Source: a virus
Virus record (IMG/VR): IMGVR_UViG_3300020123_000153
Coordinates: 1-44,128 of that record
Length of the DNA: 44,128 nucleotides
Reading direction: 5' to 3' (one strand)
Every line of letters begins with the position of its first letter. Position 1 is the first letter of the stretch. Positions 12,517 to 20,584 of the stretch are shown here, piece by piece. A program made the position numbers and the translations under genes. The notes under the pieces were generated by a model, which was given only the letters and a program-made list of their open reading frames with translations, was not told the DNA's origin and made no database searches.

Positions 12517-12786
12517 TCAAGATTCGGATGAACGCGGACCGCAGACGGAGCAATCTGGATAATTGACGCACTGATCAGGCTCGTGGGCCGTGGGCGATTC
12601 CACATCCGACACGAGATAGAACCAAGTACCGCTGGGGAAGCTTACCTCCTCTGCGCCCTCGTCGTACATCTGGCCCAACATACCGAGAGTTTCGAATCGG
12701 TATTTCTTCAAATCCTCACCTGTAGCAGCCGCAATAACGTCCGGTGCCGACTCTCCTGGAATTTCCATAGGGTGAAATTTAGGCAT
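12517..12786 (-). CDS. Hypothetical protein (89 aa)
   Basis: No family is recognised. The protein is acidic with a central 'KYRFETLGMLGQMYDEGAEEVSFPSGTWFYLVSD' region that looks folded and a C-terminal Cys cluster (CVNYPDCSVC) that could bind a metal. It overlaps the 3' end of the antiterminator-like gene by 79 nt. An AAGG sits very close to the ATG at 12786; the in-frame ATG at 12768 is an alternative start. It ends just before the inverted repeat at the candidate late promoter. Confidence 0.6.
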   Translation of the reverse strand: MPKFHPMEIPGESAPDVIAAATGEDLKKYRFETLGMLGQMYDEGAEEVSFPSGTWFYLVSDVESPTAHEPDQCVNYPDCSVCGPRSSES

Positions 12787-13127
12787 ACCTTCAAGCCGTT
12801 TTCCAGTGAGCGCGCGGACATATTCAGTTTACGCGCAATCACCTCCGTCGGCTGCGGCGTTCGATACCACGCCACGATCACCTGATTGGTCCGTTTCGGC
12901 AGCCGAAGGATAATCTGATCCACCACCGTCGCGGTATCGTCATCCAGCGGCGGTGGCTTCGAGGTTCTGGGATTGTCGTCCCACGCCTCAGACGGTAAGC
13001 CAGTGCCGATGGAAACATCCCAACGTTGCAGGATGCGATCCACCGGCAGCAGCTCCTTCGGCAGTACGCCGCCTGCGCCTTCTTCGAGCAGGCCTTCCAA
13101 GGCCCTACGGACGCTTCTGGCGTACAT
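12708..13127 (-). CDS. Q-like antiterminator or sigma-like late regulator
   Basis: The 139-aa protein has the layout of phage antitermination Q proteins. An N-terminal part has a conserved W (W36), an acidic DDDTATVVDQIILRLP (about 62-77) follows, then 'VIVAWYRTPQPTEVIARKLNMSARSLENGLKVCLNF' (about 83-118), an HTH of sigma-70 region 4 type. Q proteins bind DNA at the late promoter and let RNA polymerase read through the leader terminator. Its location just upstream of an inverted repeat, a candidate -10 and the terminator at 12403-12423 supports this role. Family identity is judged by eye. Confidence 0.65.
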   Translation of the reverse strand: MYARSVRRALEGLLEEGAGGVLPKELLPVDRILQRWDVSIGTGLPSEAWDDNPRTSKPPPLDDDTATVVDQIILRLPKRTNQVIVAWYRTPQPTEVIARKLNMSARSLENGLKVCLNFTLWKFQESRHRTLLRLLQVRI

Positions 13128-15739: not shown

Positions 15740-15911
15740 GTAATGTCCTCGTGGTAGGGAAGGACGCCCGGGAGCGCAGGCTCCGGCTACAACGCTCGTG
15801 TGAGTTCGTGCCGTGGACGGGCGAATGCTGCGCTACAGCGGGCTTACCGCTTGCTGGAATGAGGGGTTGGGCCGATGCTCCGCCGTAAGACCACAAAAGG
15901 GGGAGCGGAGC

Positions 15912-16091
15912 ATGAAAATCGCTATTTTCGCTATGGCAATCTTGTTGGCGTCCTGTCAAAGCCCAACCGACAAGCGACTCGATGAACTGAACTCTCGATT
16001 CGACGAATTGAACAGTCGAATCGACGATTTGGAAGGGTCGTTGAAGGACCTCACCGAACAAGTCGAAACGCTTCAGAACAACTGCAATTGA
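15912..16091 (+). CDS. Small coiled-coil lipoprotein (59 aa)
   Basis: The ATG at 15912 follows a strong purine-rich ribosome site (GGGGGAGCGGAG). Residues 1-14 are a lipoprotein signal (MKIAIFAMAILLAS) ending in the lipobox LLAS-C, so Cys15 would be lipidated. The mature part is an Lpp-like heptad coiled coil with a near-duplicate segment (RLDELNSRFDELNSRIDDL). It would form a fibre at the outer membrane. Lying beside the immunity genes, it may be expressed in the lysogen, for example in superinfection exclusion; that is inference. An o-spanin role is less likely, as it is far from the lysis genes. Confidence 0.8.
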   Translation: MKIAIFAMAILLASCQSPTDKRLDELNSRFDELNSRIDDLEGSLKDLTEQVETLQNNCN

Positions 16092-16094
16092 CTG

Positions 16095-16151
16095 GTTATG
16101 TTGCCTCGCGCTATCCAGCTCTGTGCGTTGTGCCAGACTGACCAACATAAC
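16095..16151. repeat. Inverted repeat between convergent genes
   Basis: GTTATGTTG (16095-16103) and CAACATAAC (16143-16151) are exact complements separated by 39 bases. They lie between the lipoprotein gene and the convergent small HTH gene. No T-tract follows, so this is either a weak bidirectional terminator or a binding site. Confidence 0.45.
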
Positions 16152-16153
16152 AA

Positions 16154-16369
16154 CTAAGCGGAAAGTCGCTGAGCAGACGGTTTCAGCGGCTGAGCACGAA
16201 AGTAAGACGCGAGTTTTTCAATATGGCTGACGCCCGGGTCCTTGACCTCCTGGCGCGCTATCTTTTCGATGGTCCGGCGCGACATACCTGTGGCACGAGC
16301 TACCTCAGGCCACTCCCCTTTCGCGTCCTGGAGCTTGTTCAGGACGTACTGATAAATCGAGTCGGTCAT
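16154..16369 (-). CDS. Small HTH regulator (71 aa), Cro/CI-like
   Basis: A 71-aa DNA-binding protein: 'WPEVARATGMSRRTIEKIARQE' (about 20-41) is a clear helix-turn-helix, and 'SHIEKLASYFRAQ' is the following helix of the Cro/CI fold. It diverges from the XRE repressor across the operator pair at 16385-16419. Its promoter would start RNA about 2 nt before the ATG, so the mRNA is probably leaderless, as for lambda cI from PRM. Whether it is the Cro or the CI partner cannot be decided from sequence. Confidence 0.8.
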   Translation of the reverse strand: MTDSIYQYVLNKLQDAKGEWPEVARATGMSRRTIEKIARQEVKDPGVSHIEKLASYFRAQPLKPSAQRLSA

Positions 16370-16377
16370 GCCCCGTG

Positions 16378-16419
16378 ATGCTAGACCCTATTTAGGGTTT
16401 ACGCAACCCAGTACAGGGT
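16378..16419 (-). promoter_or_regulatory. Leftward promoter with operator pair O1/O2
   Basis: Minus-strand promoter: -35 TTGCGT (16406-16401), 17-bp spacer, -10 TAGCAT (16383-16378). Operator O1, ACCCTATTTAGGGT (16385-16398, perfect ACCCTA/TAGGGT arms), fills the spacer. O2, ACCCAGTACAGGGT (16406-16419), abuts the -35. The sites are 21 bp apart, two helical turns. A weak rightward TTTACG/AGGCTT pair may serve the XRE gene. Confidence 0.8.
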
Positions 16420-16445
16420 CAGGCTTGCCCGTAGCCTTCGGGAAC

Positions 16446-16790
16446 ATGGGTAGGAAATCAAAAAAGGACCGGCCGCCAGCGATTATTCAGGCCGTACTCG
16501 CAGACAATTTGCTGCGGCTGCGAGATATGAAGTTCGGACACCTAACAACAGCGACCGCGCGCAATCGACTGCTCGCATCTCAATCCGGAACGACGCTGTC
16601 GCAGATCCAGAGAATACTGGAGCAGAAGCTTGCCTGTGGTGTTGACATGCTAGAACAGCTAGCCAACGTGCTCGAAGTCAGTCCCTGCGACCTGATCACG
16701 CCCTACTTTGCGCGCACTCGTGTAAGCGAGACGCGAAGCCCCGCAGAAAACCCGAAGAATCCCTCGCCCTCACGGATTACGACGTCCTGA
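16446..16790 (+). CDS. XRE-type phage repressor (114 aa)
   Basis: The start at ATG 16446 (MGRKSKKDRP) gives 114 aa. Residues about 18-85 form an XRE-type HTH domain (LADNLLRLRDMKFG... SGTTLSQIQRILEQKLACGVDMLEQLANVLEVSPCDLITPYF), the last part being the typical 'L-x-x-L-A-x-x-L-x-V-x-P-x-D-L' signature. The C-terminal 25 residues are disordered, and there is no LexA-like protease domain, so control is probably not by RecA-driven self-cleavage. The gene is flanked by two copies of the same operator pair, which supports it as the ligand of those sites. Confidence 0.85.
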   Translation: MGRKSKKDRPPAIIQAVLADNLLRLRDMKFGHLTTATARNRLLASQSGTTLSQIQRILEQKLACGVDMLEQLANVLEVSPCDLITPYFARTRVSETRSPAENPKNPSPSRITTS

Positions 16791-16837
16791 TATTACTGGA
16801 CCCAGACGAAGGTCCATCTCACTCGCCGTGACAAAAA

Positions 16838-16879
16838 ACCCTATTTAGGGTTGACGGGACCCAGAATAGGGTTTACGCT
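16838..16879 (+). promoter_or_regulatory. Early rightward promoter with operator pair O3/O4
   Basis: The promoter has -35 TTGACG (16851-16856), a 17-bp spacer and -10 TACGCT (16874-16879). O3, ACCCTATTTAGGGT (16838-16851), is identical to O1 and abuts the -35. O4, ACCCAGAATAGGGT (16859-16872), lies in the spacer. The 21-bp spacing equals that of O1/O2. RNA would start at about 16886, the A of the first ORF's ATG. Confidence 0.85.
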
Positions 16880-16885
16880 CTCCCT

Positions 16886-16969
16886 ATGGCCCCGATCGTG
16901 AACAACCCGCCTCCTAACCTCGCCAGGATCGTCGGCGGTGCGATTTGCGGCCGGGGCCTCTTTGAATGA
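16886..16969 (+). CDS. Leader ORF of the early operon (27 aa)
   Basis: MAPIVNNPPPNLARIVGGAI then CGRGLFE. Its ATG coincides with the predicted transcription start of the early promoter, so it would be translated from a leaderless mRNA. Its stop overlaps the next start (ATGA). It may serve mainly to start translation of the coupled operon. No function is recognised. Confidence 0.5.
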   Translation: MAPIVNNPPPNLARIVGGAICGRGLFE

Positions 16970-17136
16970 ACGGACTCCGCCCCAGCTGCTGGTGCCATGC
17001 CGGTTTATGGCAGGGGCATTGCCTGAGCTGCGGTGCTCGAGCGCAAGCGGCCGGTCACTGGGTCCGCTGGTGGCGCGTGTATCTGACGTTGGTGGTGGCC
17101 TCGGTGTTGGGTTACCTGTTGGGAGAGTTCCTATGA
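16966..17136 (+). CDS. Small membrane protein with zinc knuckle (56 aa)
   Basis: Residues 8-23 contain CWCHAGLWQGHCLSC, a possible metal-binding Cys/His cluster. Residues about 36-56 (WWRVYLTLVVASVLGYLLGEFL) form a membrane helix. It is coupled by ATGA overlaps on both sides. A small inner-membrane protein of unknown role. Confidence 0.65.
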   Translation: MNGLRPSCWCHAGLWQGHCLSCGARAQAAGHWVRWWRVYLTLVVASVLGYLLGEFL

Positions 17137-17321
17137 CTGCTGAGCAAATGGCCGAAGAGACCCTCCAGAAGTACGGCGTGCCGCACAGCGAGGCTTTGTA
17201 TCGCGCCATCCTCGAGATGGTGTTCACGCGCGGCAGGATCGAAGGTGCGCTGACATTCTCGCAGAAGCTGACTCAGGGATATGCGGGCTCTGCTGTCACG
17301 CCGCTGAGGGTGGTCAAGTGA
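17133..17321 (+). CDS. Hypothetical protein (62 aa)
   Basis: MTAEQMAEETLQKYGVPHSE and a helical middle 'ALYRAILEMVFTRGRIEGAL'. The start at 17133 gives ATGA coupling to the membrane-protein gene; the reading frame is open further upstream, but that would bury two good ORFs. No family is recognised. Confidence 0.65.
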   Translation: MTAEQMAEETLQKYGVPHSEALYRAILEMVFTRGRIEGALTFSQKLTQGYAGSAVTPLRVVK

Positions 17322-17510: not shown

Positions 17511-17714
17511 ATGGACATCCAGGTTCACCTTGCCGCGATCTGCTGTGTGTGCAAGTGCTCGCTGCACTGGCATGAGCCGCACGCGATCGTAAACCACGAC
17601 TACGCGCATCTGGATTGCGCGGATGCTTACGACAGTCAGGACATCGGCGGCCAAGACCTACCGCCCTACATCGAACACGGGTTTGACGACGACTCAGATT
17701 TCGACGAGGAATAA
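17511..17714 (+). CDS. Acidic Cys-rich protein (67 aa)
   Basis: Residues 11-17 contain CCVCKC and further His residues (HWHEPHAIVNH) follow, which suggests a metal site. The C-terminus is strongly acidic (DDDSDFDEE). A ribosome site, AAGGAG, lies 7 nt upstream. It precedes the annealing-protein gene by 1 nt. Confidence 0.65.
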   Translation: MDIQVHLAAICCVCKCSLHWHEPHAIVNHDYAHLDCADAYDSQDIGGQDLPPYIEHGFDDDSDFDEE

Positions 17715-17715
17715 C

Positions 17716-18357
17716 ATGGAAACCACTGAAAACCTACACGCCTCACTCGCTGCCGCCCAAGGCGAGTTTGAGCAGATCCGCCGCGACAAAAGCGTGACGG
17801 TCACCATGAAATCGGGCGGCAAGTACTCCTTCAGCTATGCCCCGCTGGAATCGATTCTGCGCGCGGTGACGCCTGCGCTAAGCAAGCACGGACTTGCGCT
17901 CACGCAGGCGACGAAAGCGCTGGAGTCCGGCAAAGAGTTTGTCGAGACCACGCTGCGGCATGCGAGCGGGGAGGTGCTCACGAACATGATTCCCATTTTT
18001 GTGCGCGACGATGGTCCGCAAGCCTACGGCTCTGCCCTGACCTACGCGCGCCGGTACGGCGTAACACTGCTGTTGTGTATCTCCGCCGATGACGATGACG
18101 ACGGGAACGCGGCAGAAGGCAATACGCACGAAGTGACCAAGCAGCCTGAGCAGCGCAACGGAACTCATGACAAGCGCGTCAAGGAGTACGCCAAGCGCTT
18201 CCACGATGCGTTCGAGGTGGGGATCGACCAAGCGGTGGTTGATCTCAACACCGAGCTGCGCGAGGACGAGGAACTCTACCGCGCGGTGTGGGGAACGCTG
18301 CCCTCGGGCATGCGCCGACAGATCAAAGAGCTGATTGACCGGTCGAAAGCGGCGTGA
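17716..18357 (+). CDS. erf: ERF-family single-strand annealing protein
   Basis: The 213-aa protein carries the ERF signature in order: YSFSYAPLESILRAVTPALSKHGLALTQ (about 35-62), 'VETTLRHASGEVLTN', then 'GPQAYGSALTYARRYGVTLLLCISADDDDDGNAA' (about 98-131). ERF proteins, typified by P22 Erf, form rings that anneal complementary strands in phage recombination and genome circularisation. A helical C-terminal domain follows. The start at 17716 (METTENLHAS) was chosen because the N-terminal extension in the open frame runs through the previous gene. Confidence 0.95.
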   Translation: METTENLHASLAAAQGEFEQIRRDKSVTVTMKSGGKYSFSYAPLESILRAVTPALSKHGLALTQATKALESGKEFVETTLRHASGEVLTNMIPIFVRDDGPQAYGSALTYARRYGVTLLLCISADDDDDGNAAEGNTHEVTKQPEQRNGTHDKRVKEYAKRFHDAFEVGIDQAVVDLNTELREDEELYRAVWGTLPSGMRRQIKELIDRSKAA

Positions 18358-18683
18358 TGGGGCTCACTCCCGACGATTGTGATGCGGCACTGCAGTTTCT
18401 AGCGGAGACGTGCGATGCGATTGCGGCGGCAAAATCAGAGTTGGAGCGCTCAGCCATCTTGGCCAAGCGCACGCGAAAGCGAATCTTCCTTACCGCTCCA
18501 GACGGATCAGTGGCGCAACGTGAAGCATTCGCTGAGGTTCACCCAGACGTCATTTCCGCCGACCAGCGGCACGTCGAAGCCATAGGCGAGTTTGAAGCGC
18601 TGAAGGCCAAGCGGGAGTTGCAAGTGATCAAGGTTGATGTCTATCGCACGAATGCGGCATCCAGACGGGTGGCATCCAAATGA
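18354..18683 (+). CDS. Hypothetical protein in recombination module (109 aa)
   Basis: Predominantly helical, beginning MMGLTPDDCDAALQFLAETC. It is coupled to erf (ATGA) and to the Ref-like gene (ATGA). Position suggests an accessory of the recombination module, but no family is recognised and no motif beyond helices is visible. Confidence 0.7.
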   Translation: MMGLTPDDCDAALQFLAETCDAIAAAKSELERSAILAKRTRKRIFLTAPDGSVAQREAFAEVHPDVISADQRHVEAIGEFEALKAKRELQVIKVDVYRTNAASRRVASK

Positions 18684-19048
18684 GTGACGCACCCACAAAG
18701 GCCGAGCAAGAGCGGATTGACCGTATGAAGCGGCTGGGCTGCCCCGCGTGCGCATTCCTCGAGATCGTGAATGTGGGCTGTGACCTTCACCACATCCTGA
18801 TCGGAGGCGTGCGAGCGGGGCACTGGTATTCCATTTTCCTGTGCCCGGGGCATCACCGCGGCGCGTGGTCTGACGAGCAGTTGGAGCTGATCGAGCCGCA
18901 CCAGCGAGTCGCGATCTCGGATGGCCGTAAAGCCTTTACACGGGTGTACCCGTCTGAGCGTGAGATGTGGGAGACGGTACAGCGGCGGCTGAATCTTTCG
19001 ACGGCGTGGCCGCTGAGCAAGATTTTATCGCGGAGGGATGTGGCGTGA
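18680..19048 (+). CDS. Ref-like HNH recombination nuclease (122 aa)
   Basis: Matches the phage P1 Ref ('recombination enhancement') family: GCPAC (20-24), C34 with HHILIGG (37-43), GHWYSIFLCPGHHRG (47-61). These supply the zinc ligands and HNH catalytic His residues. Ref is a RecA-dependent nuclease that cuts displaced DNA in D-loops. Pairing with an annealing protein in the same operon makes sense for recombination-dependent replication or repair. The gene is GTGA-coupled to the next. Confidence 0.8.
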   Translation: MSDAPTKAEQERIDRMKRLGCPACAFLEIVNVGCDLHHILIGGVRAGHWYSIFLCPGHHRGAWSDEQLELIEPHQRVAISDGRKAFTRVYPSEREMWETVQRRLNLSTAWPLSKILSRRDVA

Positions 19049-19431
19049 GCGATGATCATCCTACGTTTGGGAATATACAAAAGCTCTTTAGGCGCAGAGG
19101 GTTTACTTTCCTTCCAGTTGGATTTCGATTACCGGAGCCGGTCGCGCCGCCGCCCCGCAAAGCATTCGTGTATGTGATTCCGGCTGGCGAAATTTTCAAA
19201 GTTGGCGTTGCTAAAAATATCGGTAGGCGTTTAAGCGGCCTGAGAGTGGGCAATCCGATGATCGACGAACCGCTACTGACAGTTCAGTTCGAAGAAAAGG
19301 ATGCCTATAAAGTTGAGGGATTAATCCATACCGAACTCAGGCAGTTTTGCGTGGGCGGCGAATGGTTCAACTGCGATCCATCACTCGCTATGAATTTGCT
19401 CAAGATGTTGGCTGGAATGAACTCCAAGTGA
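19045..19431 (+). CDS. GIY-YIG / T5orf172-type protein (128 aa)
   Basis: Start GTG 19045 overlaps the preceding stop. The domain spans about 41-110: FVYVIPAGEIFKVGVAKNIGRR, then E91/H95 in the central helix, and 'GGEWFNC' near the end, typical of the T5orf172 branch of GIY-YIG nucleases. The first Tyr motif is atypical (YVI for GIY) but the K-V-G and E-W-F landmarks are present. It may be a free-standing homing or DNA-processing nuclease. The segment is less GC-rich at the 5' end, a sign of transfer. Confidence 0.75.
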   Translation: MSDDHPTFGNIQKLFRRRGFTFLPVGFRLPEPVAPPPRKAFVYVIPAGEIFKVGVAKNIGRRLSGLRVGNPMIDEPLLTVQFEEKDAYKVEGLIHTELRQFCVGGEWFNCDPSLAMNLLKMLAGMNSK

Positions 19432-19775
19432 ATACACTCGACATCAAGGAAGCTGCGGCCCTTGCGAAGTGTCATCCGGACACGATGCGCAAGCTCATGA
19501 AGGCAGGCGATGTGCCCGGCATCAAAGTTGGGCGCAAGTGGGTCGTCCGAGAAGAAGACTTTAACCAATGGTGGGACCGATGCCGCTTTATAAACGCAAG
19601 CCAGGCGGAGTCTGGTGGGTCCGGATTGGCCGAAAGACTCGCAAGACGACGGGCACAAAGGATCGCAAGCGAGCGGAGGAATTCGAGCAGACCGAGCGAG
19701 ACCGGCTCTGGCGACGACACAAGCTCGGAGACCGTGGTGCCATTTCCTGGCAGAAGGCAGCTGAGCGATGGCTGA
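19428..19775 (+). CDS. Excisionase-like HTH protein (up to 115 aa)
   Basis: Start GTG 19428 overlaps the previous stop. Residues 1-52 are a winged HTH of the excisionase/MerR type (LDIKEAAALAKCHPDTMRKLMKAG then IKVGRKWVVREEDFNQWW). The remainder is Arg/Ser-rich and overlaps the integrase start by nearly 200 nt in another frame. Such proteins bend DNA and direct integrase to excision. The long overlapping tail may be non-functional or unstructured; the HTH call itself is firm. Confidence 0.75.
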   Translation: MNTLDIKEAAALAKCHPDTMRKLMKAGDVPGIKVGRKWVVREEDFNQWWDRCRFINASQAESGGSGLAERLARRRAQRIASERRNSSRPSETGSGDDTSSETVVPFPGRRQLSDG

Positions 19776-20584
19776 AAACCTCCAAACGCTCCCGAGTACG
19801 GGATCGCGAATTTCTGAAGTGGCTGCAACCCAATATCGGCAACGAGGCGGTGCGGGACGTGGCGGATTCGGCGGTACTGGATCAATTGCGCGAGGACGGA
19901 CTGGCGGAAGGCTGGGCACAATCGACGGTCGATCGCATGATGAGGACGGTGCGCTCCGTGCTGCGCTCCTGTTGGAAGCGCAAGGAGATCGACCAGCCTT
20001 ACGTGCCGATGCACGGCGATCCGGAGGCAGAACCCCGGTTCCTCACAGAGCCACAGTTCCGCGCGTTCTGTGCCGAACTGCCCGAGCATCTGAGCCTCGC
20101 GGCCCGGTTTGCGGTCCTCACCCTCCTGCGCAAGACGGCGCAGTCACGCCTCACGTGGGATCGCGTGGACATCGAGAAGCGCTGGGCGTGGATACCGGGC
20201 GAGAAAACCAAAACCGGCAAGCCCTTTGGGATTTCACTTTCGGACGAAGCAGTCGAAATCCTGCAGGAGTGCAAGCAACTCTGGCCGACCGGCGAACGGG
20301 TCTTCCGGTACGACGGCAAACCGGTGGCGAACTTCCACACGGCAGCCTTCAAGAAGGCCGCACGGCGGGCGCGAGTGCTCCCCCTACGCTGGCACGACCT
20401 GCGGCATACGGGCGCATCCTGGGCGGTCCAGAACGGCGTGACGCTGCAGGAGTTGATGGAGCTGGGGAACTGGAAGAGCTACAAGGCGGTGCAGATCTAC
20501 GCCCATCTGGCGCCCGCAAATGTGGCGACAGCGGCGAAAGTGGTTGGACAAACGGTAGCACACGCCCTCAAGAAATCAGCGTGA
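19580..20584 (+). CDS. int: Tyrosine-recombinase integrase
   Basis: The 334-aa protein (start MPLYKRKPGG; 19568 is an alternative) has an N-terminal arm-binding region (WWVRIGRKTRKTTGTKDR), a SAM-like core-binding domain (about 55-140) and the catalytic domain. Landmarks, numbered from 19568, are R188 (TLLRKT), Lys in KTKTGKP (about 215-218), H276-x-x-R279 (RWHDLRH), W302 and the nucleophile Y311 (YAHL). It integrates the phage at a tRNA gene: the tRNA-like attP lies 32 bp past its stop. Confidence 0.95.
   Translation: MPLYKRKPGGVWWVRIGRKTRKTTGTKDRKRAEEFEQTERDRLWRRHKLGDRGAISWQKAAERWLKTSKRSRVRDREFLKWLQPNIGNEAVRDVADSAVLDQLREDGLAEGWAQSTVDRMMRTVRSVLRSCWKRKEIDQPYVPMHGDPEAEPRFLTEPQFRAFCAELPEHLSLAARFAVLTLLRKTAQSRLTWDRVDIEKRWAWIPGEKTKTGKPFGISLSDEAVEILQECKQLWPTGERVFRYDGKPVANFHTAAFKKAARRARVLPLRWHDLRHTGASWAVQNGVTLQELMELGNWKSYKAVQIYAHLAPANVATAAKVVGQTVAHALKKSA

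Follow-up and report, generated by a model that had tools for sequence, protein, structure and literature searches.

What kind of regulatory region is formed by two pairs of near-identical inverted repeats that stand on either side of a single putative repressor gene? We addressed this question in a window of 44,128 bases, the whole stretch of an IMG/VR virus genome that was analysed. The record bears a direct terminal repeat of 127 bp and a tyrosine integrase gene (19568-20584), and therefore it most likely represents a complete temperate phage. The original prediction had described four sites of the form ACCC(N6)GGGT as a compact two-operator switch. The window holds exactly four matches to this pattern and no others, where 0.49 were expected, and the number was not reached in shuffles of the window (at least four matches in 0/100), so the set lies beyond chance. 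We designate the sites, formerly O1 to O4, as OR1 (16385-16398; ACCCTATTTAGGGT), OR2 (16406-16419; ACCCAGTACAGGGT), OL2 (16838-16851; ACCCTATTTAGGGT) and OL1 (16859-16872; ACCCAGAATAGGGT). OR1 and OL2 are identical and the other two are variants, as had been stated. The predicted spacing of 21 bp, measured start to start, was likewise found in both the left and the right pair, with a gap of 7 bp; in 300 dinucleotide shuffles, single sites occurred at a mean of 0.50 and 21-bp pairs were absent. From this spacing we infer that two dimers could sit on the same DNA face at each pair.

The gene between the pairs (gene B; 16446-16790, plus strand, 114 aa) encodes a CI-like helix-turn-helix (HTH) protein, in agreement with the XRE-type repressor gene originally placed there, and a homologue occupies the same position in nearly all relatives. 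As a lone protein query, gene B retrieved nothing related from either viral contigs or phage records; its family was instead assembled via the neighbourhood of gene A homologues. Single-protein PHROG and Pfam matches were weak, and the assignment rests on the family profile, which matched a Salmonella phage repressor (5d4z, E 4.5e-9). Gene B also matched the N-terminal, DNA-binding domain of the PAJU2 repressor gp59 (hhalign 97%). A structure model of gene B gave an HTH fold with a clear recognition helix and matches of the lambda/P22/434 type, and its structural matches included C.AhdI and C.Esp1396I. No Pfam match to Peptidase_S24 was found in gene B or in any of the 11 family members scanned. 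Since gene B is without a cleavable domain, RecA-stimulated self-cleavage cannot drive induction, which probably needs another route, for example an antirepressor. Repressors lacking a peptidase domain are known from other phages.

Gene A (16154-16369, minus strand, 71 aa) lies outside both pairs as the first gene of a leftward early operon, and is better conserved than gene B. It matched the phrog_9425 'transcriptional repressor' family (E 4e-17, an HTH homology) and Pfam HTH_26 above the cut-off. Among 50,697 phage records its sole relative was the distant PAJU2, whose 'putative repressor Cro' is 34% identical (tblastn E 3e-7). The gene A profile had no match in the PDB, and Foldseek returned XRE-type matches, which were weak, and nothing else. 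Within the same operon, a small gene for a lipoprotein-like coiled-coil protein runs convergent with gene A (15912-16091, plus strand). A Q-like antiterminator gene follows downstream of gene A and before the late genes (12708-13127, minus strand; phrog_79, E 4e-5). On the other side, the rightward early operon (17623-20584, plus strand) carries, by PHROG matches, genes for an Erf-like annealing protein, endonuclease-like proteins, an excisionase and the tyrosine integrase. No N-like antiterminator was found among the PHROG matches in this operon, although N proteins are too variable for this to count.

By DNA similarity, positions 15900-17200 had no match in phage records. A protein search with gene A yielded 22 viral loci and one MAG; among 369 whole genomes from the class of this MAG, gene A was matched in 2 and the strict pattern in 0. 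We also scanned 2.9 million viral contigs by DNA alone with the pattern ACCCN6GGGTTGN5ACCCN6GGGT, which returned 66 stretches. About half of these carry gene A and/or gene B, and two (L045 and L090) are fragments of contigs on which the locus had already been found. The remaining stretches fall into a coding-sequence family from marine contigs and two small families of repeats, and they have no -10 element in the expected place; the marine matches (~30), a single protein-coding family without gene A or gene B, were rejected. After de-duplication, 34 loci were measured, the window included. Fourteen were new from the DNA-only scan, and for these the 21-bp spacing of one pair was preset by the pattern, whereas -10 offsets and ATG distances were not.

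Wherever a contig of a gene A relative extends far enough, a 21-bp pair precedes gene A, and in nearly all relatives a second, outward-facing pair lies 0.1-1.9 kb off, the interval holding a divergently oriented homologue of gene B. According to the original prediction, finding the genes without conserved sites in relatives would speak against the switch; across the 34 loci the sites are conserved, with a spacing of 21 bp at OR in 33/34 and at OL in 29/32. This comparison supports the compact two-site switch proposed around the repressor gene. In several relatives (L012, L013, L015, L020, L021), additional genes for lipoprotein-like, endonuclease-like and small membrane proteins lie between gene B and OL. 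The rexAB genes of lambda likewise lie between cI and OL, and the additional genes are possibly cargo expressed in lysogeny. In a subclade of four loci (L026, L032, L061, L067), the helix region of gene A has the sequence PESTLRKLRYGEVKDP or a near variant, and a site-like CCCATTTATGGGT or similar sequence occurs ~19 bp past the OL pair, so that OL may have three sites there.

Each pair is associated with an outward-facing promoter, and the two promoters are mirror images in which the last base of one site is also the first T of the -35 element. PR reads leftward into gene A (16378-16406, minus strand), with a -35 of TTGCGT (16406-16401), a 17-bp spacer and a -10 of TAGCAT (16383-16378); OR2 adjoins its -35 and the conserved OR1 lies inside the spacer. 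PL (16851-16879, plus strand) combines TTGACG (16851-16856), a 17-bp spacer and TACGCT (16874-16879), with OL2 adjoining the -35 and OL1 inside the spacer. The claim that one site lies at the -35 and the other in the 17-bp spacer thus stands for the right pair, whereas for the left pair it holds only for the minus-strand promoter, PR. Read as a plus-strand promoter (TTTACG-17-AGGCTT), the left pair was rejected, as the AGGCTT -10 is not conserved in relatives. The left pair has in addition a third promoter at its own fixed offset, PRM, which serves gene B from a -10 of TAGCCT (16432-16437, plus strand) 12 bp past OR2. Its -35 region is overlain by OR2: a -35 placed 17 bp from the -10 would be within that site, and across relatives the -35 showed no information content.

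The promoter assignments rest on conservation in relatives, because a generic sigma-70 consensus scan found no promoter at the paired sites, the elements scoring under threshold. On the gene A side of OR, TAnnnT is confined to the +1 offset (27/34 loci); on the gene B side it occurs at OR+12 in 25/31 loci (≤2 at any other offset), and beyond OL it occurs at OL+1 in 27/32 loci, where the TTGAC of PL is conserved as well. On the control flank, from OL towards gene B, TAnnnT offsets were scattered. Together, these alignments indicate a promoter-operator grammar that is kept while the proteins diverge.

The start codons are placed with similar regularity. The gene A ATG lies 15 nt past OR1 in the window and at +13 to +15 from OR in 34/34 loci, which is the expected transcription start, and therefore the PR mRNA is predicted to be leaderless. 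The gene B ATG, at 16446 in the window, falls mostly at +24 to +29 from OR, and the ATG at 16886 coincides with the predicted PL transcription start. By position, then, the transcripts of gene A from PR, of gene B from PRM and of PL in the window are all predicted to be leaderless; a leaderless PL start also occurs in about a third of relatives.

The ATG at 16886 opens a 27-aa ORF (16886-16969, plus strand), the first of the PL operon, which overlaps the next ORF, of 56 aa, at ATGA. In L003 this stretch (16886-17136 in the window) corresponds to a single leaderless ORF of ~79 aa (NLARI...RPSCWCHAGLWQGHC...), and the ORF pair could reflect a frameshift or, alternatively, a natural division into two translationally coupled ORFs. 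Loci whose PL transcript carries a leader usually have an inverted repeat of 6-8 bp that begins near the transcription start and often pairs with the ribosome-binding site (GGGAG/GGAGG). Arms of at least 6 were found in 15/32 OL flanks (L001, L004, L009, L012, L013, L015, L017, L020, L021, L023, L024, L055, L068 and L070 among them), compared with a mean of 1.7 and a maximum of 6 in shuffles and with 1/34 at the PR flank. This repeat may form a hairpin at the 5' end of the PL mRNA.

We then considered what acts on the paired sites. That the repeats are RNA hairpins (terminators or attenuators) instead of protein sites is exceedingly improbable. One site does score as a minus-strand terminator with a T run after it, but this T run is not conserved among relatives, the six central positions are variable in sites whose ACCC and GGGT ends and 21-bp phase stay constant, and the sites are inside promoters, upstream of the transcription starts; the terminator reading was therefore rejected. 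Among protein readings, gene A alone could use the sites, as a Cro-type autorepressor at PR and PL, with gene B acting at another place or through different sites. In favour of this reading, gene A shows the stronger conservation and always adjoins a pair, and two relatives, L010 (a contig of 19.7 kb) and L018 (40.6 kb), retain both pairs and gene A with no match to gene B or an integrase, which implies that gene A uses the sites. L010 and L018 have the appearance of virulent relatives whose paired sites would serve only the Cro-like protein, but both may be fragments, and gene B and the integrase may be beyond the contig ends. In L008, L010 and L018 the pairs stand nearly back to back (separated by 33, 61 and 20 bp, respectively) with no repressor gene between them and no integrase in the contigs.

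We nonetheless regard use by gene A alone as unlikely, since base 5 of the operator follows the gene B recognition helix and not any gene A column. In the four phages in which this helix reads LSQIQR (Q53), base 5 is T in 4/4, compared with 1/25 of those without the Q. Column 53 of gene B ranked 2 of 109 for association with base 5 (p 0.0015, uncorrected and ignoring phylogeny), a value that fails strict correction for 109 columns; the best of 56 gene A columns gave p 0.013 (also uncorrected and ignoring relatedness). In L002 and L003, a lysine at the first helix position of gene B occurs together with TCCC half-sites. The exact 12-bp offset held by the PRM -10 from OR also argues against sites that serve gene A alone, as does the selective decay of the gene-B-side half of OR2, which fits a role for site occupancy in controlling gene B. 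The converse, that gene B alone binds the sites and gene A is another kind of early protein, draws on the same co-variation and on the lambda/434-like fold and clear recognition helix predicted for gene B. It appears quite improbable, as both pairs and gene A persist in relatives where gene B is not recognisable, and the gene A product also belongs to the Cro/C1-type HTH proteins, with the Cro of PAJU2 as a homologue. With moderate confidence, the alignments suggest that both proteins use the same sites, as in lambda.

We therefore think it very probable, from gene order and comparative sequence, that the region is a lambda-type immunity region of a temperate phage, in which a cro-like gene is read from PR, a cI-like gene from PRM, and the recombination and integration genes from PL, with OR and OL on either side of the repressor gene. 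In this scheme, gene B dimers would sit side by side on each pair, two helical turns apart, and at both PR and PL would cover the -35 as well as the spacer, keeping the lysogen silent. At infection or induction, the gene A protein would occupy the same sites and lower expression from its own promoter and from that of gene B. OR2 would fill last and cap gene B expression, such that two sites would replace the three of lambda.

A distinctive feature of OR2 bears on this last step. Its gene-B-side half-site is intact in only 14/34 loci, whereas the other seven half-sites are intact in 28-34 of 32-34. This decay suggests a low-affinity feedback on gene B: a weak, last-filled OR2 would hold PR shut while limiting gene B. 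We tentatively propose, with somewhat less than even confidence, that a single weak OR2 stands in for both OR2 and OR3 of lambda, that repressor bound there would set the level of gene B, that the PRM -35 region is itself operator, and that PR and PRM are leaderless. As a variant within the lambda-type scheme, PRM could work as in restriction-modification C proteins, with a dimer on the far, strong OR1 activating and a dimer on the near, weak OR2 repressing. A strong far site, a weak near site over the -35 region, a leaderless transcript and the lack of a -35 all follow the scheme described for C proteins (PMC4824078), and C.AhdI and C.Esp1396I are among the structural matches of gene B. However, the SQE sigma-contact motif, known from phage repressors as well as C proteins, is absent from gene B, and helix 2 of the window protein starts with basic residues, leaving this variant rather doubtful. 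More broadly, C.AhdI, C.Esp1396I and C.Csp231I resemble the locus in having two adjacent, unequal sites in their own promoter, a leaderless mRNA and a similar fold, while here there is no SQE motif, no restriction-modification gene among the annotated neighbours, and two operator pairs serve three promoters.

The closest parallels to the lambda-type immunity region are the switches of lambda, 434 and P22, which share a CI-like gene flanked by two operator clusters, a divergent cro, outward-facing PR and PL, a Q-like gene in the cro operon, and a PL operon containing int and recombination genes. The 434 operators are 14-bp sites of 4-6-4 structure, the same as here. The locus differs from these phages in its two sites per cluster instead of three (the window has only two matches per cluster), its exact 21-bp spacing, a gene B without a cleavable domain, another PRM -10 offset and a leaderless cro. 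Three sites per cluster are not universal in lambda-type regions, as OL of N15 has two (PMC4488713). The immB regions of N15, phiKO2 and PY54 are similarly lambda-like, with CI/CB, Cro and Q, and the cI and cro mRNAs of PY54 are leaderless; unlike the two sites found here, OR has three sites in N15 and phiKO2 and one in PY54, the PY54 Cro binds a single 16-bp site, and the operator sequence of these telomere phages differs (PMC4488713). PAJU2 (gp59/gp60) combines a Cro related to gene A with a CI-type repressor whose DNA-binding half is homologous to gene B. That repressor, however, is 234 aa long with a C-terminal half missing from gene B, its cro is preceded by a leader that includes a ribosome-binding site, and the interval between gp59 and gp60 showed no ACCC(N6)GGGT pairs. 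Of the solved structures, the short repressor of a Salmonella temperate phage (PDB 5d4z, 5d50) is nearest to the gene B family by sequence profile, yet distant.

The OR/OL plan of lambda is a known principle and is not new here. Lambda-type switches, repressors without a peptidase, a two-site OL and leaderless cI and cro are each already known singly (N15, PY54: PMC4488713). The novelty lies in the sequence of the operators, their exact two-by-two arrangement, the PRM offset and the wide range of phages, hardly present in reference collections, over which the locus is conserved; no description of the two-by-two layout was found in the open-access literature searched. With this grammar, DNA sequence by itself suffices to locate the genetic switch in temperate phages about which little is known. 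The more than 30 natural versions of a single switch, together with their matched proteins, provide a test set for the rules of recognition-helix specificity. These loci also allow us to ask whether a two-site operator is equal to the three-site operator of lambda.
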